Shown in pieces: positions 3,884 through 22,888 of a stretch of DNA of 35,733 bases. Within the stretch, counting starts at the first letter, position 1, and each line of letters begins with the position of its first letter. The position numbers and the translations under genes are program-made. Where the stretch lies: positions 1 to 35,733 of the forward strand of contig CAIODK010000165.1 in assembly GCA_903856995.1 (NCBI GenBank), in the 5' to 3' direction. The notes under the pieces are model-generated. The model ran no database searches and was not told the DNA's origin. It worked only from the letters and a program-made list of their open reading frames with translations. Source of the stretch: an uncultured Burkholderiales bacterium. GTDB taxonomy: Bacteria; Pseudomonadota; Gammaproteobacteria; Burkholderiales; Burkholderiaceae_C.

Positions 3884-6253
3884 TTATTTCAGTGGAGAAA
3901 CAGCGGTGGGCATGGCAATGGTGGACACCATGTTGGTGGTCAAGTTGGCGGGACCGCCTTTGGGCGGCCAAATACCTTGGGCCACGGCATCGGCACGGGC
4001 TTTGCTGCGTGCGTCTAGGGTGGGGTAAGCCCAAATATTGGTAAAACGCAGCGGGCCATCCAAAGCCACCATCGCGATGACGCATGGCGACAGTTTTTCG
4101 CGCGCAGGAATGGCTTGCTCCCACAAATCAATCGTGGGTTGCACACCACCCGGCTTGATGCCATAGGTACGAATTTCGTAAACGGGACCATGGATGCCGC
4201 TCTCAGCACTGGGGCGCACGGGCTTCATCCAAGGAAAGCTTTGGTAGCTGTGCTGCTCCAGCGTTTGGAAGATTTCACCGCAACCAAAAGGGCTGGCATT
4301 CTGCTGCGTGCGTTGGCGCTCAGCTTGCAAGGTGGCCAAGTCATCAAAGCCACGCAACACAACCATTTGATTCAAGACGCCAATGTCAGTGAACCAACAG
4401 CCCAGCAATTCACCTTGCCCTTGGGCCGCAAACGTTTGGACGTTGAGTGCCGCTTGTCCGGCGGTGCCAAATGGCAATGTCATGGTGGCGAGTTCGTAAT
4501 ACATGGGTGAAGTCCTTTTAAAAAATGTGTGTTCGGGTGAGGTGCGGGCCGCATGATGCGCGGCAAGAAAACCAAAGGTCATGGCTGGGCCAAGCGTGAT
4601 ACCACCACTCGGGTAGTTGCCGCCCATCATGCTGGAGAGGTCATTGCCTCCTGCGTACAAACCATCGATGGCCTGCCCATTCGCATTCAACACTTGTGCG
4701 TGTTCGTTGCAACGCAAACCTGCAAAGGTACCCAAGCTACCTGCAACGATGCGCACGGCGTAGAACGGGCCATCTTGCAACGGCGCCATGCATGGATTGC
4801 GCCCCGTGTGGGCGGGGTCGCCTTGCATGCGGTTGTAGGGCGTTTGGCCTTTGGCAAATTCGCCGTCATGGCCAATGTCAGCCATGGTGTTGTAACGCAC
4901 CACGGTGTTTTGCAAACTCACCGCATCGATGCCGCACCGCTCGGCTATCTCGGCCAAGGTATCACCTCTTTGCAAATAACCGTTGGCCAGCATGCCATGC
5001 ATAGGCACAGGCGCAGGCTTGACTGCACCCAAACCCCAGCGACGGATGAAGCGATGGTCGACCACCAGCCACGCTTGCACGGGCTCCCCTTCGGGAAGCG
5101 CCTGAATCAAACCCTGCACGAAGTCGTGGTACGAGTCAGCCTCATTCACAAAGCGTTTGCCAAAGCGTGTGACAGAAATCAAACCGGGCTTGCCACGTTC
5201 AATCAAGTGCGGGAAATGCACCTGAGTGCCATCCGCGCGAAGGACCAAGGACACAGGGGCCAATGCCGCCGCTTGCTTCAAATCCTTAGCAACCACGCCC
5301 CCCGCCGATTCGCCCAAACGCAAACCATCGCCGGTGTTGCCTCTAGAAGCTGCAGAAAAATGTTGTTGCCCTGTGGGGTCGTGCGCCAGTAGTTCACTTT
5401 TGCGTTGTGGGTCATGCGGGAAGCCACCCGCGGCCAACATCACGCCGCGCTTGGCGCGAATGGTTTGCTCTGCGCCGTGATGCATCACTACCGCGCCACG
5501 GACATTGGGGCCATCGGTGATCAAGCGCACGGCAGGGCTGTTCACACGAATGTCCACCCCTGCATCAAATGCTGATTTGGCCAGCGCGGCCACCAAGGCG
5601 TTGCCATTGACCAAGTGCATGCCACGACCATGCCAAACCAAATCCCAAAGATGACGCACCACACGGTTGGTCACGTACAAGAACGAACGCCAGGCGCGCA
5701 TGGCATTAAAAAAGTGACGGATGTCTGCGCCCGACGCAATGCCCATCCCTAAGAAGGTGATCTCATGCAAAGGCGTTTTGAGTTGTTCGATGTGCTGACC
5801 CAACAAGCGACCATCAAACGGGGCAGCGCACACAGATCGGCCGCCCAAGGCCGCGTCTTCGGTACGGCCATGAAAATCAGGAATCGCGTTGCCATCGATG
5901 AACTGCAAGGACGTGTGCGTTTCAAAAAAAAGCACCATGCGAGGACCGTTGCTCAAGAACGTGCGCGCACGCGCCTCCTCAAACTGTTGCCCGAGTTCAT
6001 GGCGCAAATAGGAGAGCGGTTTTTCAATCGGTTCAGCCATGCCGCCTCTGAGCGCCAACACGTTACGCGGGATCCACATCCAACCGCCGGACCATGCCGT
6101 CGTGCCGCCATAGTGCGGATCTTTTTCGACCACGATCACCTTGAGCCCTAAGTGCGCGGCTGTGACGGCCGTGGATAAGGCGCCCGCACCCGAACCGACC
6201 ACGAGCAAATCGCAATCCCAATGCGTCACAGAGGCGGACTTGTCGCTATTCAT
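3884..6253 (-). CDS. FAD-binding dehydrogenase (3-ketosteroid-delta1-dehydrogenase / fumarate reductase flavoprotein family) in frame with a C-terminal tandem NIPSNAP protein
   Basis: 789 aa; Rossmann motif DLLVVGSGAGALSTAVTAAHLGLKVIVVEKDPHYGGTTAWSGG, C-terminal GLYAGGNDLSSMMGGNYPSGGITLGPAMTFG; residues ~584-789 (MYYELATMTLP..., VYEIRTYGIKPG...) look like two NIPSNAP domains. Confidence 0.88.
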   Translation of the reverse strand: MNSDKSASVTHWDCDLLVVGSGAGALSTAVTAAHLGLKVIVVEKDPHYGGTTAWSGGWMWIPRNVLALRGGMAEPIEKPLSYLRHELGQQFEEARARTFLSNGPRMVLFFETHTSLQFIDGNAIPDFHGRTEDAALGGRSVCAAPFDGRLLGQHIEQLKTPLHEITFLGMGIASGADIRHFFNAMRAWRSFLYVTNRVVRHLWDLVWHGRGMHLVNGNALVAALAKSAFDAGVDIRVNSPAVRLITDGPNVRGAVVMHHGAEQTIRAKRGVMLAAGGFPHDPQRKSELLAHDPTGQQHFSAASRGNTGDGLRLGESAGGVVAKDLKQAAALAPVSLVLRADGTQVHFPHLIERGKPGLISVTRFGKRFVNEADSYHDFVQGLIQALPEGEPVQAWLVVDHRFIRRWGLGAVKPAPVPMHGMLANGYLQRGDTLAEIAERCGIDAVSLQNTVVRYNTMADIGHDGEFAKGQTPYNRMQGDPAHTGRNPCMAPLQDGPFYAVRIVAGSLGTFAGLRCNEHAQVLNANGQAIDGLYAGGNDLSSMMGGNYPSGGITLGPAMTFGFLAAHHAARTSPEHTFFKRTSPMYYELATMTLPFGTAGQAALNVQTFAAQGQGELLGCWFTDIGVLNQMVVLRGFDDLATLQAERQRTQQNASPFGCGEIFQTLEQHSYQSFPWMKPVRPSAESGIHGPVYEIRTYGIKPGGVQPTIDLWEQAIPAREKLSPCVIAMVALDGPLRFTNIWAYPTLDARSKARADAVAQGIWPPKGGPANLTTNMVSTIAMPTAVSPLK

Positions 6254-7204: not shown

Positions 7205-7999
7205 ATGCTCGACAACTTCAGCGGCGCCACACGTGTTCACCTCATCGTGGGTGACCCCATCGCACAAGTGAAATCGCCTTTTGGCGTCACGCAAGCATTT
7301 GAACAACATGGCAAAGACGCCGTGTGCGTCCCCGCCCACGTGCCCACCCAAGACCTGAAGCAATGGTTTGAAGGCGTATCCCTCGCACGCAACGTCGACG
7401 GGGTTATCGTCACCGTGCCTCACAAGTTTGACTGCCATGCGTTTTGCGCCACCAGCTCACCTCGCGCCGAGTTCTTGGGTGCGGTCAACACCATCCGCCG
7501 CAATGCTGATGGCCGTTGGCATGGCGACATGTTCGACGGTTTGGGCTACGTCAAAGCAATTGAGTCGAAAGGCTTCGACCTCAAAGGCAAAAAAGCGTTG
7601 CTGGTCGGTGCAGGCGGTGCAGGCTCGGCCGTCGCACACAGTTTGGTGTTGGCTGGCGTGAGCGAGTTGGCCATCCACGACGAAAGCACCGAGCGCCGTG
7701 AGTCACTCATCAAACGACTGAACAGCTTGAACATGGGGCGCGTCTTCTGCGGCAGCGGCGACCCAACTGGCGTTGACGTGGCCATCAACGCCACGCCCCT
7801 CGGGATGCGCGAAGGCGACCCAAGTCCCATTGATTTGAGTGCCATCACGCCACAGATGTTCATCGGTTGCGTCATCACCGCGCCCGCCGTATCACCCCTG
7901 ATTGCCGCAGCCCGCAGCAAAGGCTGCCCTACCGTCACGGGCGCGGAGATGTTTGCGCAAGTCCGCGAGCTGATGGTGCAATTCTTGTTAGAAGCCTAA
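7205..7999 (+). CDS. Shikimate dehydrogenase family protein (AroE-like, divergent substrate pocket)
   Basis: 264 aa; VHLIVGDPIAQVKSPFGV, VIVTVPHKF, FLGAVNTIRR, LLVGAGGAGSAVAHSL match the AroE fold; catalytic Lys/Asp positions kept. Confidence 0.88.
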   Translation: MLDNFSGATRVHLIVGDPIAQVKSPFGVTQAFEQHGKDAVCVPAHVPTQDLKQWFEGVSLARNVDGVIVTVPHKFDCHAFCATSSPRAEFLGAVNTIRRNADGRWHGDMFDGLGYVKAIESKGFDLKGKKALLVGAGGAGSAVAHSLVLAGVSELAIHDESTERRESLIKRLNSLNMGRVFCGSGDPTGVDVAINATPLGMREGDPSPIDLSAITPQMFIGCVITAPAVSPLIAAARSKGCPTVTGAEMFAQVRELMVQFLLEA

Positions 8000-10974: not shown

Positions 10975-11931
10975 TTAAGCGTTGAGCTGCTGCTCCAAAT
11001 CGTGCAGAACCTTGTAGCAAGGGAGCACTTGTGCCACGCTTGAGTTTGGTTCGCGGCCTTCTTTGATCGCAGCAAAGAATTCTCGGTCTTGTAACTCGAT
11101 GCCGTTCATGGAAACTGCCACGTTGGAGACATCAATTTTCTCTTCTTTGCCCGTGTACAGATCATCGTAACGAGCCAAGTAGGTGCCGGTGTCACCGATG
11201 TAGCGGAAGTACGTTCCCAAGGGGCCGTCATTGTTGAATGACAAGCTCAAGGTACAAATCGCGCCGTTGGCGGTTTGCAACTGAATGCTCATGTCCATCG
11301 CAATGCCCAGCGCGGGGTGGATTGGGCCTTGCACGGCGTTGGCCTTGACGATGGGGCTACCCGCCTGGTAAGCAAACAAATCCACCGTGTGCGCTGCGTG
11401 ATGCCACAACAGGTGGTCGGTCCAGCTACGGGCTTGACCTAAGGCGTTCATGTTGGTGCGGCGGAAAAAGTAGGTTTGCACATCCATTTGCTGAATATTG
11501 AATTCACCTGCCTTGATTTTGTTGTGCACCCATTGATGGCTGGGGTTGAAGCGACGGGTGTGACCGCACATCGCGACCAAACCTTTTTCGCTGGCGACTT
11601 GCGCCACTTCGGCGGCATCTTTCCAGCTGTCAGCCAAGGGGATTTCCACTTGCACGTGTTTGCCAGCCCTCAAGCAAGCCAAGCTTTGTGCGGCGTGCAT
11701 TTGTGTGGGTGTACACAAAATCACAGCATCGACTTCAGGCAAAGCCAAACTATCGGCCAAGTCGGTGGTGATGTGCTTGATGCCGTACTTGTCAGCAGTT
11801 TCTTTGGTTTTTTCTAAATCGCGGCTGATCAATGACACGACTTCTACGCCGTCGATATTTTTGATACCGTCCAAGTGTTTGATGCCGAAGGCACCAGCGC
11901 CCGCCAAGGCGACTTTGATGGTTTTGCTCAT
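10975..11931 (-). CDS. pmdC: 4-carboxy-2-hydroxymuconate-6-semialdehyde dehydrogenase (Gfo/Idh/MocA family)
   Basis: 318 aa; VALAGAGAFGIKHLDGI Rossmann motif, LigC-like GHTRRFNPSHQWVHNKIKAGEFNIQQMDVQTYFFRRTNMNALGQARSWTDHLLWHHAAHTVDLF; located next to pmdAB. Confidence 0.92.
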   Translation of the reverse strand: MSKTIKVALAGAGAFGIKHLDGIKNIDGVEVVSLISRDLEKTKETADKYGIKHITTDLADSLALPEVDAVILCTPTQMHAAQSLACLRAGKHVQVEIPLADSWKDAAEVAQVASEKGLVAMCGHTRRFNPSHQWVHNKIKAGEFNIQQMDVQTYFFRRTNMNALGQARSWTDHLLWHHAAHTVDLFAYQAGSPIVKANAVQGPIHPALGIAMDMSIQLQTANGAICTLSLSFNNDGPLGTYFRYIGDTGTYLARYDDLYTGKEEKIDVSNVAVSMNGIELQDREFFAAIKEGREPNSSVAQVLPCYKVLHDLEQQLNA

Positions 11932-11979: not shown

Positions 11980-13321
<1,342 letters not shown>

Positions 13322-13322
<1 letters not shown>

Positions 13323-14239
13323 TAAAAAGTCTCCTCAGGCCAGTAGAGGCGCATCGGGTTGTCGACCAACAACTTACGTTGTTGCTCTTCAGTGGTCGCG
13401 ATGTGCGGAATGAAGTCAACCAACAAGCCGTCATCAGGCATGTGGTCTTTGAGGTTGGGGTGCGGCCAATCGGTGCCCCACAACACGCGGTCTGGGAACT
13501 CATCCACGATGCGCTTGGCAAAGGGGATCACGTCTTGGTACGCGTTTTGTTCGCCGTTCAAAGCCTTGGGGCCGGAGACTGACAAACGCTCGGGGCACGT
13601 CACTTTGCTCCACACATTTTTGTGCTCGCGCATGAACTTCACAAACAGCTCAAACTCTGGGCCATCGACGGGCTTGGTCACATCGGGACGGCCCATGTGG
13701 TCCACCACCACGTTGGTGGGCAATGTGGTGAAGAAGTCCCACAGCTCTGGCAAATCAACGGCTTCAAAGTAAATCACCACATGCCAGCCCCAGAGCTGAA
13801 TGCGTTTGGCGATTTCAAGCAATTCGTCTTTGGGCGTGAAATCCACCAAGCGCTTCACAAAGTTAAAGCGCACACCGCGCACACCCGCATCGTGCATGGT
13901 TTGGATTTCTTCATCGGTGATGCTGCGCTTGACGGTGGCCACGCCACGTGCTTTGCCGTTAGAGCTGACCAAGGCATCGACCATGGCGCGGTTGTCTGCG
14001 CCGTGGCAAGTGGCTTGCACCACAACATTACGGGCAAAACCGAGGTGATCGCGCAAGGCAAAAAGCTGAGCCTTAGATGCGTCGCAGGGCGTGTATTTAC
14101 GCTCGGGGGCATAGGCAAATTCAGCACCCGGACCAAACACGTGGCAATGCGCATCCACGGCCCCTGCCGGCAATTTGAATTTGGGTTTGGTTGGACCGGT
14201 GTACCAGTCCATCCAGCCTGCGGTCTTTTGAAATTCCAT
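13322..14239 (-). CDS. pmdD: 2-pyrone-4,6-dicarboxylate hydrolase (LigI/amidohydrolase family)
   Basis: 305 aa; GAVDAHCHVFGPGAEFAYAPERKYTPCDASKAQLFALRDHLGFARNVVVQATCHGADNRAM, VLWGTDWPHPNLKDHMPDDG; TAATG overlap with pmdA. Confidence 0.95.
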
Positions 14240-14256
14240 CTCGTTCCTCGTTGTCT

Positions 14257-15222
14257 TTAATCAGGTTGAATATTGGCTTCGCGCACCAACTTGGCGTAGC
14301 GCTGGCGTTCTGTACGAATCAGTTGTGTGAACATGTCTGCGCTGCCGGGAACCACTTCACCGCCTACAGCGTTCATGCGTTCACGAACCTCTTTGGTTTG
14401 CAAGGCTTTTTGCACTTCATCGTGCAGCTTGCTCACAATCGGTTTTGGCGTGGCCGCGGGCGCCACCAAACCATACCAAACGGAGGCTTCAAACCCGACA
14501 AAACCAGATTCGGCAATGGTGGGAACATCCGGAAAGATAGCGCTGCGATTGGGGCTGAGCACCGCCAACACTTTGAGCTTGCCGCTCTTGACGTGTGGCA
14601 ATACTTCCAACGCATTCACGGCCACCAAAGGTAGCTGACCACCGATCACATCGGTGATCGCAGGGGTACCGCCTCGGTAAGGAATGTGCTGCAAATCAAT
14701 ACCTGCGGCACGAGCGAATAGCTCAATCGCCATATGTGGGGTAGAACCGTTGCCTGGCGTTCCAAAGGCAATGCTGTTGGGCTTGCCTTTGGCTGCCTCA
14801 ATCAGCTGTTTGATGTTGGTGTACGGCGCATTGGGATTGGCCGCAATCACCACAGGTACGCGACCGATGAGCGATACCGCCACCAAATCACGCTCTGCAT
14901 CAAACGGCGCGGGCTGGTAGAGCGACATGTTGGCAGCCAATGCATTGGCAGCCATCATTAAGGTGTAGCCATCGGGCTCCGCCGTGATGACTGACTTGAC
15001 CGCAATGTTGGTCCCGGCACCCGGTTTGTTTTCAACCACCACGGGCTGCCCCATGCTGATAGAGATGCTTTGACCAATGGTGCGGGCCACCACGTCCACA
15101 GCACCGCCTGCTGCATAGCCGACCACGACCTTGATCGGCTTGGCCGGATAGGTCTGCGCCATGGCGTGGCTTGCTATCAAACACATGGACAGAGCGGAGA
15201 CGAAACGCATCAAATTCTTCAT
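14257..15222 (-). CDS. Bug/TctC family tripartite tricarboxylate transporter substrate-binding protein
   Basis: Start set at MKNLMRFVSALSMCLIASHAMAQTYPAKPIKVVVGYAAGGAVDVVAR; signal peptide; typical GTPGNGSTPHMAIELF and VPTIAESGFVGFEASVWYGLVAPAATP. Confidence 0.94.
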   Translation of the reverse strand: MKNLMRFVSALSMCLIASHAMAQTYPAKPIKVVVGYAAGGAVDVVARTIGQSISISMGQPVVVENKPGAGTNIAVKSVITAEPDGYTLMMAANALAANMSLYQPAPFDAERDLVAVSLIGRVPVVIAANPNAPYTNIKQLIEAAKGKPNSIAFGTPGNGSTPHMAIELFARAAGIDLQHIPYRGGTPAITDVIGGQLPLVAVNALEVLPHVKSGKLKVLAVLSPNRSAIFPDVPTIAESGFVGFEASVWYGLVAPAATPKPIVSKLHDEVQKALQTKEVRERMNAVGGEVVPGSADMFTQLIRTERQRYAKLVREANIQPD

Positions 15223-15331
15223 CGTGGGTTCCTTTGAGACATAAATCGACTTGTGCCGTGCCGCGCAAACCTGCTGTGCAAACGCTAGCAAGTAAGGCAT
15301 GCCTGCTTCACGGCCTTTGGGAATGGCGACG

Positions 15332-16015
15332 TTAGTCGATGTATTTCAAGCCTGCTGCGGCCAGAGGCTCACGCATCTTGTACATGTCGAGGCCTAATAC
15401 ACCGGAGGCTAATTTGGCACGTTTCTCACCTTCAAAGCTCTCACGCTTTTGAGCGGCTTCCCACGTTTGTGCAGCACGTGCAGCAGGCACGCACACCACA
15501 CCGTCATCGTCAGCGACGATGACATCACCGGGATGAACCAACATGCCTGCACACACCACGGGAATATTGACAGATCCGATCGTGGCCTTGATGGTGCCTT
15601 TGCTACTGATAGCTTTGCTCCACACGGGGAAGTTCATGCGGTGCAACTCTTTCACATCACGCACACCGGCGTCGATGATCAAAGCGCGTGCGCCACGGGC
15701 TTGGAACGAGGTGGCCAACAAATCACCAAAGTAACCATCGGTGCAATCGGCCGTGATCGCAGCCACCACGATGTCACCGGGCTGAATTTGTTCAGCGGCC
15801 ACATGCATCATCCAGTTGTCGCCGGGGTGCAAAAGCACGGTCACCGCGGTGCCCGAGACTTGCGCACCTGGGTAGATAGGACGCATATAAGGCTTCATCA
15901 AACCCACGCGACCCATCGCCTCATGAACCGTGGCAGAGCCCAAAGCGGCCAAGCCGTCAGCAGCTGCGCGATCAGCGCGGGTGATGTTGCGGTAAACAAC
16001 GCCGAGTTCGTACAT
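15332..16015 (-). CDS. pmdF: 4-carboxy-4-hydroxy-2-oxoadipate aldolase / oxaloacetate decarboxylase (LigK/RraA-like)
   Basis: 227 aa; [94 protein letters not shown]. Confidence 0.95.
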
Positions 16016-16057: not shown

Positions 16058-17092
16058 TCAACGACCTTGCGACTTGAGCTTGGTATCCAAACGTGAGAAC
16101 ACGCGACGTGCGTTGCCCTCGTAGATCTGATGACGCTCATCTGCATTGAGGTTGAGCGTACCTTCGATGTAACGCTTGGTGTCATCGAAGTAGTGTCCCG
16201 TTTCTGGGTCAATGCCGCGCACGGCGCCAATCATCTCGGACGCAAACATGATGTTCTTGACGGGGATCACTTTGGTCAACAAGTCGATGCCAGGTTGGTG
16301 GTACACGCAGGTGTCGAAATAGATGTTGTTCATCAAGTGCTCGTTGAGCAACGGCTTTTTGAGCTCTTGCGCCAAACCACGGAAACGGCCCCAGTGGTAA
16401 GGCACAGCGCCACCGCCATGAGGAATCAAAAACTTCAAGGTGGGGAAATCTTTGAACAAGTCAGAGGTCAAGCACTGCATGAAGGCCGTGGTGTCTGCGT
16501 TCAAGTAATGCGCACCCGTGGTGTGGAAGCAGCCATTGCAGCTGGTCGACACATGAATCATGGCGGGGATGTCGTACTCGACCATCTTTTCGTAAATGGG
16601 GTACCAAGACTTGTCGCTCAATGGGGGTGATGTCCAGTGGCCGCCCGATGGATCGGGGTTGAGGTTGATGCCGACGTTGCCGTATTGCTCCACACACTTG
16701 ACCAACTCTGGAATGCAAGTGGCAGGGTCCACACCGGGCGACTGGGGCAACATAGCTGCTGGCACGAAGTTGTTGGGGAACAACTCAGCCACGCGGAAGC
16801 ACAGCTCGTTACAGATGGCCGCCCAAGTGGATGACACTTGGAAATCGCCAATGTGATGTGCCATGAAGCTCGCGCGTGGGCTGAAGATGGTGATGTCAGA
16901 GCCGCGCTCTTTCATCTTGGCGAGTTGGTTGGTCTCGATGGTTTCGCGCAATTCGTCGTCGCTGATTTTCAGCTCGGACACTTTGGGCATAGACGCGGGG
17001 TCTTTGATGCCTGCAATTTGGCGATTGCGCCATTCTTCTAAGGCCTTAGGTGCCGTGGTGTAGTGACCGTGTACGTCGATGATGAGAGACAT
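16058..17092 (-). CDS. pmdE: 4-oxalomesaconate hydratase (LigJ-type amidohydrolase)
   Basis: 344 aa; IIDVHGHYTTAPKALEEWRNRQIAGIKDP, GGHWTSPPLSDKSWYPIYEKMVEYDIPAMIHVSTSCN, FLIPHGGGAVPYHWGRFRG. Confidence 0.94.
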   Translation of the reverse strand: MSLIIDVHGHYTTAPKALEEWRNRQIAGIKDPASMPKVSELKISDDELRETIETNQLAKMKERGSDITIFSPRASFMAHHIGDFQVSSTWAAICNELCFRVAELFPNNFVPAAMLPQSPGVDPATCIPELVKCVEQYGNVGINLNPDPSGGHWTSPPLSDKSWYPIYEKMVEYDIPAMIHVSTSCNGCFHTTGAHYLNADTTAFMQCLTSDLFKDFPTLKFLIPHGGGAVPYHWGRFRGLAQELKKPLLNEHLMNNIYFDTCVYHQPGIDLLTKVIPVKNIMFASEMIGAVRGIDPETGHYFDDTKRYIEGTLNLNADERHQIYEGNARRVFSRLDTKLKSQGR

Positions 17093-17104
17093 AAATAACC
17101 CCTA

Positions 17105-17818
17105 TTAAAAATCCATGCCCTGCTTGCGTTTGATGTCTTCAACGCGCGGAGAAGCCAAGAACTGCAAGAACGACTGAACAGCAGCGACACGCGAGGTGTC
17201 GTTGGTAATGATTTGCGCAATCCCCGCAGAGAAGGTGGTGATGAACGCCACATCCTCAGGCAGGGTCCCCAGCACATCGATGCCGGGCATTGAAATGAGT
17301 TCACTCAATTGTTGAAAACCCAAAGCGGCCTGGCCCTTAGCCACCAACTCACCGACAGGTGTGCCTGGAGCGGGGACCACGATGCGGGTTTTGATTTGGT
17401 CGGCAATGCCCCAACGTTCAAACAATTTTTCAAGGTAAACGCCGCTCGGGCCTGTCGAGTAGCTGAGTGAGGGACTGGCTAACACGGCGGCTTTCAAAGC
17501 GGCTTCGTTGCTCAAGTCAGGATGCACAGTGCCAGCTTGTACGGCCACCGCCACGGGTGAACGCACCCAGTCGTTGCGGCTACCTTGTTGCACATGACCG
17601 GAAGCAATCAAGCGCTCAATCGCATCTGCGGCCAACAACACCATGTCAAATACCTCGCCGGCTTGGACGCGTTTGGCCGCATCAACGCCTCCGACAGATT
17701 CGATCTGCACCACTACACCCGTTTCGACTTGGTATGCGTGCGTCAAATCAGCCAGCAAAGCCTTGGTGGCCATGGACGAAATGCCTCGCAAAACGAGGGG
17801 GTTGGTAGGGGTATGCAT
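17105..17818 (-). CDS. ModA-like (periplasmic-binding-protein type II) solute-binding-domain protein with no signal peptide; first gene of the pmd operon
   Basis: 237 aa; LVLRGISSMATKALLADLTHAYQVETGVVVQIESVGGVDAAKRVQAGEVFDMVLLAADAIERLIASG, SYSTGPSGVYLEKLFERWGI, ALGFQQLSELISMPGIDVLGTLP are ModA-like; the N-terminus MHTPTNPLVLRG has no hydrophobic leader. Confidence 0.8.
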   Translation of the reverse strand: MHTPTNPLVLRGISSMATKALLADLTHAYQVETGVVVQIESVGGVDAAKRVQAGEVFDMVLLAADAIERLIASGHVQQGSRNDWVRSPVAVAVQAGTVHPDLSNEAALKAAVLASPSLSYSTGPSGVYLEKLFERWGIADQIKTRIVVPAPGTPVGELVAKGQAALGFQQLSELISMPGIDVLGTLPEDVAFITTFSAGIAQIITNDTSRVAAVQSFLQFLASPRVEDIKRKQGMDF

Positions 17819-17878
17819 GCGGTGGATTCTAGAGATTTACCCCAGAACTAGGCGTTAAATGCAGGACTAGCTGCTATG

Positions 17879-17908
17879 CCGTTTTTAAATAACGGACAAT
17901 TGGTTATT
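17879..17908. promoter_or_regulatory. Candidate LysR-type operator in the pmd/lysR divergent promoter
   Basis: CCGTT-N7-AACGG (17879-17895) overlapping AATAAC-N9-GTTATT (17888-17908), just upstream of the LysR ATG. Confidence 0.5.
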
Positions 17909-17924
17909 CAAAATCGAGAATTGC

Positions 17925-18845
17925 ATGGAACTCAAACAAATCGAATCTTTTGTGCGCGTCGCCGAACTGGGTAGCTTCACCAAAGCGGCCTTAGCATTGG
18001 GCATTCCGCAACCTCTTCTGAGTCGCCACGTGCGCCAACTGGAAGTGGAGTTGCACCAGAACCTGCTGATGCGCAATGGGCGAGGCGTCACGGTGACGGA
18101 AGCTGGCTTGGTGATGCTCGAACACGGACGGGGTATCTTGCATCAAGTGGCTGTGGCACAAGAGGAGCTGGGAACCGTGCGCGGCGCATTGGCAGGACGT
18201 GTGTCGATCGGTTTGCCGCCTAGCTTGTCCAAGCTGGTGACGGTGCCACTGACCATGTCGTTTCGCGCTTATTTGCCACATGCACAACTGTCACTGACCG
18301 AAGGGTTTTCCGTGTTGATGGTCGAGAGCTTGCGCGCAGGTCGCCTGGATATGGCCGTGCTCTACAACCCACCGCCCTCGCCTGATTTGGAAATGACGCT
18401 GCTGCACGAAGACACCCTGATCTTGATTTCGGGGAAGAAAGGTCAGCAGCATCGTGCTGAAACAAAACTCAAACCCGTGATGCAACTGGCTGATTTGGCG
18501 AAGTTGCCACTCATCGCGCCTAGCCGCCCCAATGCATTTCGCTTGTTGATTGACACGGAAATGCAACGAATCAACTGCAAGCCCAACATCGTTTTCGAGA
18601 TTGATGGCTTGAACGCCATTTTGGAACTCGTCAAAGAAGGCTTGGGCTATGCCGTTTTGCCAGCCTACACACTGAGCAATTTCGCCAAGCCAGAAGACTT
18701 CACCACGCACTTGGTCGAAAAACCAAAGTTGATGAGTCAACTGATGTTGGTGTGGTCAGCCCGACGTCCACTCACGGCAACCCACAAAGCAACCATGAAG
18801 CTGACGCAAGAGGTCGCCACTCAAGCACTGCTGGCCAATGGCTGA
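17925..18845 (+). CDS. LysR family transcriptional regulator, probable pmd operon regulator
   Basis: 306 aa; MELKQIESFVRVAELGSFTKAALALGIPQPLLSRHVRQLEVELHQNLLMRNGRGVTVTEAG; divergent from the pmd operon. Confidence 0.94.
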   Translation: MELKQIESFVRVAELGSFTKAALALGIPQPLLSRHVRQLEVELHQNLLMRNGRGVTVTEAGLVMLEHGRGILHQVAVAQEELGTVRGALAGRVSIGLPPSLSKLVTVPLTMSFRAYLPHAQLSLTEGFSVLMVESLRAGRLDMAVLYNPPPSPDLEMTLLHEDTLILISGKKGQQHRAETKLKPVMQLADLAKLPLIAPSRPNAFRLLIDTEMQRINCKPNIVFEIDGLNAILELVKEGLGYAVLPAYTLSNFAKPEDFTTHLVEKPKLMSQLMLVWSARRPLTATHKATMKLTQEVATQALLANG

Positions 18846-20186: not shown

Positions 20187-20837
20187 CTACCGATCTTTCA
20201 CAACTCTACGGATCGTGTTTGCGAAGTGATCGTTAACAGCCCTCTTCATTTTTTTCACATCACGGCTAGCTAAGGCTTGGGCAATTTCTTCATGGTCCTC
20301 TAAAGCACCACGCCAATTTTCAGGTGTGTTGTTGCCACTGTATCTGAGGCTACGCATGCGTTTGCTAAGGGTGCTATGAAGCATCGTTAGTGATTCGTTA
20401 TCAGCCATCTCCACCAAAGTGTCATGAATTTTTTGATTTAAATCGAAATATTCTGGCCGTTTACCTTTTGCGTACAACACTTTCATTTTTTCGTTCATGG
20501 CCAGCACTTGGTCAATTCGATGTTGATCTGTCTTACATGCCTTTTGGGCTGCAAAACTTTCTAGCAGCCCCATTACCTCCAACATGTCTGCAGCATCTTT
20601 AGAACTGAAATTTTTTACTACAGCGCCACGCAAAGGCAACAACTCCACCAAACCCTCAGACGCTAACACCTTCAAAGCCTCACGAATTGGTGTTCTAGAA
20701 ACGCCCAAATCTCTGCTTATCTCTAACTCAGGCACTCTTTCCCCCGGCTTAATTTGCGATTCAACAATTAAGTTGCGCAAACGAGATGTCACCTCTAAAT
20801 GGAGCGATGTTCTTGCAATTGGATCTTTCACGGACAT
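20187..20837 (-). CDS. GntR family transcriptional regulator (FadR/FCD subfamily)
   Basis: Start set at MSVKDPIARTSLHLEVTSRLRNLIVESQIKPGERVPELEISRDLGVSRTPIREALKVLASEGLVELLPLRGAVV; helical FCD domain follows. Confidence 0.94.
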   Translation of the reverse strand: MSVKDPIARTSLHLEVTSRLRNLIVESQIKPGERVPELEISRDLGVSRTPIREALKVLASEGLVELLPLRGAVVKNFSSKDAADMLEVMGLLESFAAQKACKTDQHRIDQVLAMNEKMKVLYAKGKRPEYFDLNQKIHDTLVEMADNESLTMLHSTLSKRMRSLRYSGNNTPENWRGALEDHEEIAQALASRDVKKMKRAVNDHFANTIRRVVKDR

Positions 20838-20850
20838 AGATATTCGAGGG

Positions 20851-20907
20851 TAATTACGGATGCCGATGATTGTATGAGATTCATTACACTGTAATCCGTA
20901 ATTACAG
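20851..20907. promoter_or_regulatory. Nested inverted-repeat operator region between gntR and pdxA-like gene
   Basis: TAATTACGGAT (20851-20861) / ATCCGTAATTA (20894-20904); ATTACA-C-TGTAAT (20883-20895); CTGTAAT-N5-ATTACAG (20889-20907). Confidence 0.65.
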
Positions 20908-20944
20908 ATTACACATAAGATCAATTTTGTTTTGAAAGAACCTA

Positions 20945-21901
20945 ATGACGCTTCCTACCATTGCTCTGTTCACTGGCGATCCTGCAGGCATAGGTCCTGA
21001 ACTGGTTCAAAAACTGCTGCAAGACCCAGTTAGTCATCAAGCAAAAAAAATCATTTTGATAGGCCAAAAAGGCTGCATATCGCCGAGTTCAATTTCAACT
21101 TGGCACGACTGGTCAGGTCACATGGCTCCTTCATTCAAAGCCGCCTCTGCAGACGCTCATAACGGGGCTTACATGATTGAGGCTTTGGCACAAGGTGTTG
21201 CATTGGTTAGAGATGGTCAAGCGGATGCCTTTTGTTTTGCTCCCCTTAATAAAAGCGCCCTTCGCCTTGGCGGTATGCACCAAGAAGACGAACTTCGCTG
21301 GTTTGAAGAATTTTTGAACTACAAAGGCGTATGCGGCGAGCTTAATGTCTTAGAGAATCTTTGGACCTCACGCGTCACATCTCATGTACCCTTGAAAGAA
21401 GTCAGTAATCTGCTGTCGAGTCAAAAAGTATTTGAATCGATATGGATGATTTCAAATGCACTCAAGGCAGCGGGAAAACAAAAACCACGCATAGCAATTT
21501 GCGGGCTTAATCCACACAATGGCGACAACGGTAACTATGGCGATGAAGAAATCAAAATCATTGCACCAGGGGTAGAGATGGCTCAGAGAGAAGACATCAA
21601 TGCAGACGGTCCCTTTCCTGCAGATACTGCATTCGTCCGCGCCATTCGAAAAGACGATGGGTATGACGGCGTAGTCACCATGTACCACGACCAAGGACAA
21701 ATCGCAATGAAACTAATGGGTTTTGAAAAAGGGGTCACTGTGCATGGCGGGCTCCCTATCCCCATCACTACTCCGGCGCATGGAACCGCATACGACATCG
21801 TTGGAAAAAACTTAGCTAATCCCCAAGCCATGCTGAATGCATTCGAATTGGCTTGCCGAATGGGACAACACCATCGTAAACAAAATAAATCAATGACTTA
21901 A
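20945..21901 (+). CDS. PdxA family NAD-dependent dehydrogenase/decarboxylase (4-hydroxythreonine-4-phosphate dehydrogenase-like)
   Basis: 318 aa; ALFTGDPAGIGPELV, VTSHVPLKEVSNLL, AICGLNPHNGDNGNYGDEE, VTMYHDQGQIAMKLMGFEKGVTVHGGLPIPITTPAHGTAYDIVGKNLA. GntR-linked context suggests a catabolic PdxA2-type, not PLP synthesis. Confidence 0.9.
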   Translation: MTLPTIALFTGDPAGIGPELVQKLLQDPVSHQAKKIILIGQKGCISPSSISTWHDWSGHMAPSFKAASADAHNGAYMIEALAQGVALVRDGQADAFCFAPLNKSALRLGGMHQEDELRWFEEFLNYKGVCGELNVLENLWTSRVTSHVPLKEVSNLLSSQKVFESIWMISNALKAAGKQKPRIAICGLNPHNGDNGNYGDEEIKIIAPGVEMAQREDINADGPFPADTAFVRAIRKDDGYDGVVTMYHDQGQIAMKLMGFEKGVTVHGGLPIPITTPAHGTAYDIVGKNLANPQAMLNAFELACRMGQHHRKQNKSMT

Positions 21902-21928
21902 ACCTTGATTACCTAACTAGGAGACGAA

Positions 21929-22888
21929 ATGAATAAACACATTACCGTTTTGGTGTCCGCTCTCTTATTTGCCCTCAGCACTCAAGCACAAAACTCTTAC
22001 CCAAATAAACCCGTCAAAATAATGGTGGGCGCAGGCGCTGGCGGCGGTACTGACATCATTGCGCGCATGCTGGCAGAGAAAATGAGTGATTCGCTAAAAG
22101 GCACCTTCATTGTTGAAAACAAACCTGGCGCCGCAAACACCATCGCGGCCGAACTCACCGCTAAGGCTGTGCCAGATGGACACACTCTCTTAGTTGCTAC
22201 CAATACAGGGCAAGCCATCGCGCCACATTTGATCAAGTTGTCCTACGATCCCATGAAAGATTTAACACCCCTTGGATTGGTAGTCACCGTTCCTAACGTA
22301 TTGGTGGTTGGCTCCAACGTCCCTGCCAACAACATCAAAGAGTTGGTCGCACTAATGAAAGCAAAGCCTGAGGAGTTTAAATATGCTTCATCAGGCGTTG
22401 GCAGCACGCAGCACATTGCAGGCGAAGGATTTGACTTGGCAGCCGGCGTCAAGAGTGTGCACATACCCTACAAAGGAAGTGCCCAGGCCCACTTAGACAT
22501 CATTGCAGGCAATGTCCAGATCATGTTTGACACAACATCCTCTGCCATGGGCCAAATCAAAGCAGGTAAATTCAAACCCTTGGCTGTGACCACTGCACAA
22601 CGCACCTCTGAACTACCCAACGTTCCGACCTTGGCTGAAGCTGGTGTACCTGGTTTTGAGATGAGCACCTGGTATGGCCTATTCGTGACAACAGGTACCC
22701 CCCCTGATGTGGTGGTAAAGCTTCAAACTGAATTAGCACGAATCATCAAATTACCCGATGTACAAATCAAACTCAAAGGACTTGGCGGCGAATCAGGCAA
22801 CCTTAGTCCTGAAGAATTTACAAAACTAAATCGTCAGGAGTTTGAGCGATTTGGCAAGTTGATCAAACTGGCCAACATCAAAATGTGA
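21929..22888 (+). CDS. Bug/TctC family tripartite tricarboxylate transporter substrate-binding protein
   Basis: 319 aa with signal peptide; YPNKPVKIMVGAGAGGGTDIIARMLAEKM, VPTLAEAGVPGFEMSTWYGLFVTTGTP. Confidence 0.94.
   Translation: MNKHITVLVSALLFALSTQAQNSYPNKPVKIMVGAGAGGGTDIIARMLAEKMSDSLKGTFIVENKPGAANTIAAELTAKAVPDGHTLLVATNTGQAIAPHLIKLSYDPMKDLTPLGLVVTVPNVLVVGSNVPANNIKELVALMKAKPEEFKYASSGVGSTQHIAGEGFDLAAGVKSVHIPYKGSAQAHLDIIAGNVQIMFDTTSSAMGQIKAGKFKPLAVTTAQRTSELPNVPTLAEAGVPGFEMSTWYGLFVTTGTPPDVVVKLQTELARIIKLPDVQIKLKGLGGESGNLSPEEFTKLNRQEFERFGKLIKLANIKM

Follow-up and report, generated by a model that had tools for sequence, protein, structure and literature searches.

The analysed window, a stretch of 35,733 nucleotides from an uncultured Burkholderiales bacterium (contig CAIODK010000165.1), carries a protocatechuate 4,5-cleavage (pmd) operon. 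Its first gene encodes a ModA-like protein and is located 12 bp upstream of pmdE, followed by pmdF, a gene for a TctC receptor, pmdD, pmdA, pmdB and pmdC (Table 1). The preliminary description of this DNA had placed the ModA-like gene at the first operon position and had assigned pmdAB, pmdC, pmdD, pmdE and pmdF to the operon; both assignments are borne out, the former by gene spacing and order and the latter by profile matches, with the CHA aldolase confirmed by TIGR02798. In Comamonas, the pmd genes are arranged in the order pmdUKEFDABC. Clusters that start with a PrpF gene and otherwise contain the same genes (PrpF-type clusters) occur in the same family as the source genome, and the TctC receptor is missing from several ModA-type and several PrpF-type clusters. 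The 106 bp that separate the ModA-like gene from the divergently oriented LysR gene harbor a LysR-box-like inverted repeat (ATAAC-N9-GTTAT, 17889-17907); a search of this region for a sigma-70-like match was negative. Neither modB nor modC neighbors the ModA-like gene, which is flanked by the pmd genes downstream and the LysR gene upstream.

Table 1 Features of the pmd region (positions within the window)
Feature	Position	Strand	Basis or remark
pmdC, Gfo/Idh/MocA-type CHMS dehydrogenase	10975..11931	-	Gfo/Idh family; cluster position conserved
pmdB, protocatechuate 4,5-dioxygenase beta subunit	11980..12861	-	NF009903, 575 bits
pmdA, protocatechuate 4,5-dioxygenase alpha subunit	12864..13322	-	TIGR02792, 236 bits
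pmdD, LigI-like PDC hydrolase	13322..14239	-	Amidohydro_2; cluster position conserved
TctC-type receptor in the operon	14257..15300	-	profile match
pmdF/LigK, CHA aldolase	15332..16015	-	TIGR02798, 418.7 bits
pmdE, LigJ-like hydratase (amidohydrolase)	16058..17092	-	Amidohydro_2
Leaderless ModA-like (SBP_bac_11) protein, proposed 4-oxalomesaconate tautomerase	17105..17818	-	237 aa
Intergenic region, ModA-like gene to divergent LysR gene, 106 bp	17819..17924	.	read in the sequence
LysR-type regulator, divergent, recurrent beside both cluster types	17925..18845	+	

Three further regions of the window were recorded. A shikimate/quinate dehydrogenase-like gene (7205-7999) lies close to the pmd operon and could supply the pathway with protocatechuate derived from quinate or shikimate. 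Genes for a GntR regulator, a PdxA-like dehydrogenase and another TctC receptor (20187-22888) adjoin the pmd region and possibly form another aromatic-acid module. A 789-aa open reading frame (3884-6253) encodes a fused protein that combines a FAD-dependent dehydrogenase-like domain with a C-terminal domain that is, as judged by eye, NIPSNAP-like.

The ModA-like protein was matched to SBP_bac_11 (PF13531) in a Pfam profile search with E=2e-42, and its orthologs in two genomes of the same genus are 81-83% identical. The closest solved sequences are ModA proteins (E ~1e-6). An AlphaFold2 model (mean pLDDT 97.1, pTM 0.90) finds its best PDB fold matches among ModA-type proteins (TM ~0.74-0.82), and the carboxylate binders PEB3 and AcfC are among its structural neighbors. 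The periplasmic-binding fold that had been proposed is thus supported by profile and model alike. No match to PF04303 or NF033377 was obtained in profile searches, and PHROGs gave no match. Compared with E. coli ModA (1amf/3r26), the protein has the same fold and aligns over the full length with about 20% identity or less, but it has no leader and no modBC partners, and it scores only 35.1 bits against the ModA equivalog TIGR01256, below the cut-off of 62.5 bits. A true ModA (C99, 226 bits) is encoded separately in the source genome.

Since an in-frame stop is located six codons 5' of the sole start and the first strand runs from residue 9 onward, the reading frame leaves no room for a leader. 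In many orthologs, likewise, the first strand is separated from the upstream stop by only 6-25 codons, and about 50 orthologs read as leaderless. The upstream stop and the orthologs exclude an alternative start further upstream that would add a signal peptide. The protein is therefore leaderless, as had been read from the window alone. Its nearest paralogs in the same genomes have signal peptides or lipoboxes. In a phylogenetic tree, the leaderless proteins form a clade of 52 rows (SH-aLRT 99) with an exported sister clade of 23 rows (93), and the true ModA groups are separate; the tree was obtained by a short search and contains some long branches. Leaderless and exported members are 34-39% identical and have S15, S87, S121, S125 and a QQxSE motif in common. 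The exported paralogs, known from the source genome as well as from Cronobacter and Pantoea, differ in their signal peptide or lipobox, in their location outside pmd operons and in a SASAS segment where the leaderless proteins have STGPS.

A PF04303 search, positive in control genomes, detected no PrpF gene in the whole source genome (97% complete, 6.6% contamination) or in the two genomes of the same genus, each listed as 100% complete and one of them a single contig. The preliminary description had seen no PrpF-fold tautomerase in the window and had stated that its proposal would be refuted by a LigU/GalD homolog encoded at another place in the genome; the absence extends to all three genomes, and no such homolog appeared. 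In a sample of 200 genomes from the same family, the ModA-like gene (counted as present at ≥170 bits) and the aldolase gene occurred together in 103, the ModA-like gene alone in 5, the aldolase gene alone in 18 and neither in 74 (Fisher p=8e-31). PrpF and the aldolase were not associated in these genomes (p=0.88), and 64 of them encode the aldolase and the ModA-like protein with PrpF nowhere in the genome. An artefact of incomplete genomes as the cause of the missing PrpF is rejected on the basis of the two 100%-complete genomes and of these 64 genomes in total. Coordinates for the survey were transferred by hand from search outputs to scripts.

The five genomes with the ModA-like gene but without the aldolase are 73-92% complete, and in one of them pmdE adjoins the ModA-like gene. 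Among the 18 aldolase-only genomes, PrpF is adjacent to the aldolase in nine and a LigU ortholog is found on another contig in one (G009). In G017, G021, G069 and G110, the aldolase is accompanied by a ModA-like copy that is weaker, divergent or cut, two further cases (G108, G166) are cut off by contig ends, and G052 has just a partial ModA-like copy elsewhere in the genome. The one case left over is G148.

At the level of individual loci, 122 aldolase genes were inspected. A ModA-like gene was present within 6 kb in 73 cases and PrpF in 9, with no locus having both, and for 35 of the 40 remaining loci the genome has a ModA-like ortholog elsewhere. The ModA-like gene is usually found 1.7-1.9 kb upstream of the aldolase and PrpF 1.7-2.5 kb upstream; in about a dozen genomes, the ModA-like gene is located away from the pmd cluster. 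Examples are an uninterrupted row of LysR, ModA-like gene, pmdE, F, D, A, B and C without a TctC gene (L044), and PrpF followed by pmdE, F, D, A, B and C (L037). In their other genes the clusters agree, with PmdE at 75-87% identity in both the ModA-type and the PrpF-type clusters of the family. The PrpF of the latter clusters is a true LigU, as judged from its best PDB match, (4E)-oxalomesaconate Delta-isomerase (PDB 6p3j, E=9e-117) and from 529 bits against NF033377. LigU, PmdU and GalD (PDB 6p3h/6p3j/6p3k) share with the ModA-like protein the operon position, the partners (a LigJ-type hydratase and LigK) and the proposed reaction but neither sequence nor fold, LigU being a protein of 350-370 aa with the PrpF/DAP-epimerase fold.

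In the rest of the order, outside the family, 10 genomes are ModA-type, 14-15 are PrpF-type and none is both. Of 13 aldolase-bearing genomes elsewhere in the class, at least 10 encode PrpF on the contig that also holds the aldolase. In none of the 13 does a ModA-like gene adjoin the aldolase, and the only ModA-like match is weak (29% identity) and located on another contig. A PmdE tree with 42 ModA-type and 32 PrpF-type loci requires about nine changes between the two types, at least five of which are forced by strongly supported branches; it comprises 79 proteins, was computed by a quick search and includes loci picked for having a pathway cluster. These repeated swaps indicate that the mutual exclusion of the ModA-like gene and PrpF is not one inherited accident. 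A confounding link of the ModA-like gene to transport by TctC is also rejected, because TctC can be present or absent in clusters of either type and some ModA-type clusters have an MFS transporter. The ModA-like gene fits the genomic role of the OMA (4-oxalomesaconate) tautomerase, as this is the only missing step of the operon and the gene is exclusive with LigU.

Gallate modules narrow down the pathway step. After cleavage of gallate, which yields OMA directly, an OMA tautomerase, a KCH hydratase and a CHA aldolase (named as in PMC12314914) follow. In three ModA-type loci (L042, L114, L117), the ModA-like gene, pmdE and pmdF are found together with a gallate dioxygenase; those of L117 and L042 are about 430 aa in length and score 761 and 792 bits against NF009904, respectively, and the L117 enzyme matches DesB (3wku) with E=7e-169. 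Plasmids of Burkholderia multivorans and B. pyrrocinia encode a gallate dioxygenase, an MFS transporter, a LigJ-type hydratase, LigK, the ModA-like protein and a tannase. L114, L117 and both plasmid stretches are all without pmdC, pmdD and PrpF. Their hydratase and aldolase being accounted for, these modules leave the ModA-like gene as the sole remaining candidate for the OMA tautomerase. A proteomic study of Hydrogenophaga grown on 4-hydroxybenzoate lists LigAB, LigI, LigJ and LigK, with no tautomerase mentioned in its text (PMC6592069).

PrpF genes that occur elsewhere in ModA-type genomes were rejected as the true tautomerase: the copies tested belong to other groups and are 44-49% or less identical to LigU. 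One of them has YbhH as its best PDB match and lies beside TctC, MaoC-like and CoA-transferase genes. Yet a YbhH-like group present in some ModA-type genomes passes the NF033377 cut-off for OMA tautomerases (487 vs 440 bits). The same surroundings are seen for such cut-off-passing copies at L071 (G199) and similar loci, where the NCBIfam name is likely an over-annotation.

Leaderless copies are not restricted to Burkholderiales. Members of the same clade adjoin genes of the protocatechuate 4,5-pathway in Arthrobacter keyseri and Streptomyces and ligK in Methylobacterium. In Pseudarthrobacter, the genes of the pathway reportedly form a single transcription unit, and a gene whose operon position matches that of the A. 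keyseri ModA-like gene is annotated as 'ABC-type molybdate transport system' and read as a transport gene (PMC8431788). The likeness is one of position, without a direct sequence comparison.

The ligand cleft was examined by alignment with ModA, whose molybdate contacts we take to be S12, S39, A125, V152 and Y170, a numbering that fits the alignment. These positions are located in one loop and at the N-terminal ends of helices; in the alignment, S39 is replaced by G44, A125 by S125, V152 by G152 and Y170 by Q170, and S12 may correspond to S15 or A17; no binding data are available. The same contact segments are the most conserved parts of the ModA-like family (SSMAT, GGVDAA, STGPSG, PG-PVG and GFQQxSE), and S15, S87, S121, S125, Q169, Q170, S172 and E173 are invariant in the leaderless and exported clades. 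The conservation suggests that the cleft likely holds a carboxylate ligand, an inference from the alignment and not from docking.

Taken together, it is probable that the ModA-like protein is a cytosolic OMA tautomerase of the periplasmic-binding fold that is not homologous to LigU, the activity being inferred from comparative genomics. In the proposed scheme, a type II periplasmic-binding-fold enzyme would do the job of LigU/PmdU/GalD in the cytosol: (4E)-oxalomesaconate from PDC hydrolysis or gallate cleavage would be isomerised to the keto isomer KCH, which would then be hydrated by PmdE and the product cleaved by PmdF to pyruvate and oxaloacetate. OMA may be bound between the two lobes, with its carboxylates held by the helix N-termini at S15, G43-G44, S121-G126, G152-G156 and F168-E173. 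A proton would be moved in a 1,3-allylic shift by invariant cleft residues, for which E173, S125 and Q169/Q170 are putative candidates. Among PrpF proteins, SoPrpF catalyses a related shift on 4-methyl-cis-aconitate (PMC5690661), and TarA/TbrA act on trans-aconitate (PMC11495376).

A non-homologous tautomerase was one of the options offered in the preliminary description, and it is picked out, without activity data, by the exclusion of PrpF, the co-occurrence with the aldolase, the gallate modules, the leaderless clade and the separate ModA. A metabolite sensor, also offered there, fares less well. Such a cytosolic sensor or carrier would bind OMA or another intermediate and modulate the LysR regulator or deliver its ligand to PmdE, with tautomerisation being spontaneous or catalysed by PmdE. 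This would suit a fold whose members usually bind without catalysis and which is also that of LysR effector domains, the divergent orientation towards the LysR gene, and the structural proximity to PEB3 and AcfC. The absence of any joint locus is unexpected under this explanation, however, and a sensor would not repeatedly replace LigU next to the same PmdE. Moreover, LysR genes also occur at PrpF-type clusters and relocated ModA-like copies persist far from the LysR gene, so that a sensor or carrier is considered unlikely.

Very unlikely is a role in another pathway step, for instance E/Z isomerisation of a ring-cleavage product, with OMA being tautomerised by an unrecognised protein. Genomic position is indeed all that is known, and aconitate-type isomerases can take several related acids (PMC5690661, PMC11495376), but the gallate modules without pmdC and pmdD leave OMA steps only, and the gene that is replaced is LigU and no other enzyme. 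Scarcely credible is a real transport component that binds molybdate or an aromatic acid, as current annotations ('substrate-binding domain-containing protein', 'ABC-type molybdate transport system') imply. It could draw on fold and family and on the TctC gene within the operon. Against it stand some 50 orthologs without a leader next to an exported sister clade, an operon without modB/modC in a genome with a true ModA elsewhere, ModA-type clusters that lack TctC (L044) or have an MFS transporter instead, and the differing contact positions, the latter resting on presumed positions and on no binding data. Labels such as 'substrate-binding' or 'molybdate transport' are thus most likely a wrong name for an unrelated enzyme, whose activity as an OMA tautomerase is inferred.

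No description of a ModA-like OMA tautomerase was found in the papers searched. With somewhat less assurance, the widespread leaderless ModA-fold family can be regarded as a second, non-homologous class of OMA tautomerases that has swapped with LigU several times and that forms, together with exported ModA-like isomerases, a superfamily of allylic isomerases with the periplasmic-binding fold, a counterpart to the PrpF superfamily. If the tautomerase assignment is true, a missing step in a central pathway of lignin and tannin catabolism would be filled in at least 64 of the 200 sampled family genomes, which lack a known tautomerase, and a misleading transport annotation would be corrected in Proteobacteria and Actinomycetota. 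It would also represent a clear non-orthologous replacement, with old and new enzymes alternating at one operon site, and a new tautomerase of practical use in PDC and lignin engineering. Confirmation of the ModA-type fold as an allylic isomerase would turn other leaderless 'substrate-binding' proteins into enzyme candidates.

Two genomes, G148 (complete) and G575, contain pmdE and pmdF with neither the ModA-like gene nor LigU nearby. Possible explanations are that tautomerisation is spontaneous or solved in yet another way, or that a genome was misread. The G575 locus (L134) has a complete pmdE-F-D-A-B-C cluster, with TRAP/TAXI-like transporter genes and a dienelactone-hydrolase-like gene upstream. 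An open reading frame also upstream of this cluster (13428-14372) resembles, by eye, a 4,5-dihydroxyphthalate decarboxylase. A third solution to OMA tautomerisation at this locus is possible.

The leaderless proteins would probably share ancestry with exported ModA-like proteins encoded near TctC receptors, MFS transporters and LysR genes, and the latter may be aconitate isomerases. The aconitate isomerase of Pseudomonas sp. WU-0701, said to have been described by Yuhara in 2015, is reportedly an exported ModA-like protein; it would be likewise an allylic isomerase that acts on a tricarboxylate, possibly with the same fold, but with a different substrate and location. The exported paralog of the source genome (C308; G000, L063:2069-2860, minus strand) is a protein of 264 aa with a signal peptide, encoded beside a TctC receptor gene. 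It scores narrowly above the TIGR01256 cut-off, yet is distinct from the true ModA, and is a candidate aconitate isomerase, with the activity inferred. On Cronobacter and Pantoea plasmids (L237, L244), an exported ModA-like protein is encoded between an MFS transporter gene and a convergent LysR gene, a content that resembles the trans-aconitate (TAA) system encoded by the tar genes, with another protein in place of TarA. An ISME study reported Pantoea and Serratia isolates that use TAA but lack TarA, for which these modules may provide an explanation.
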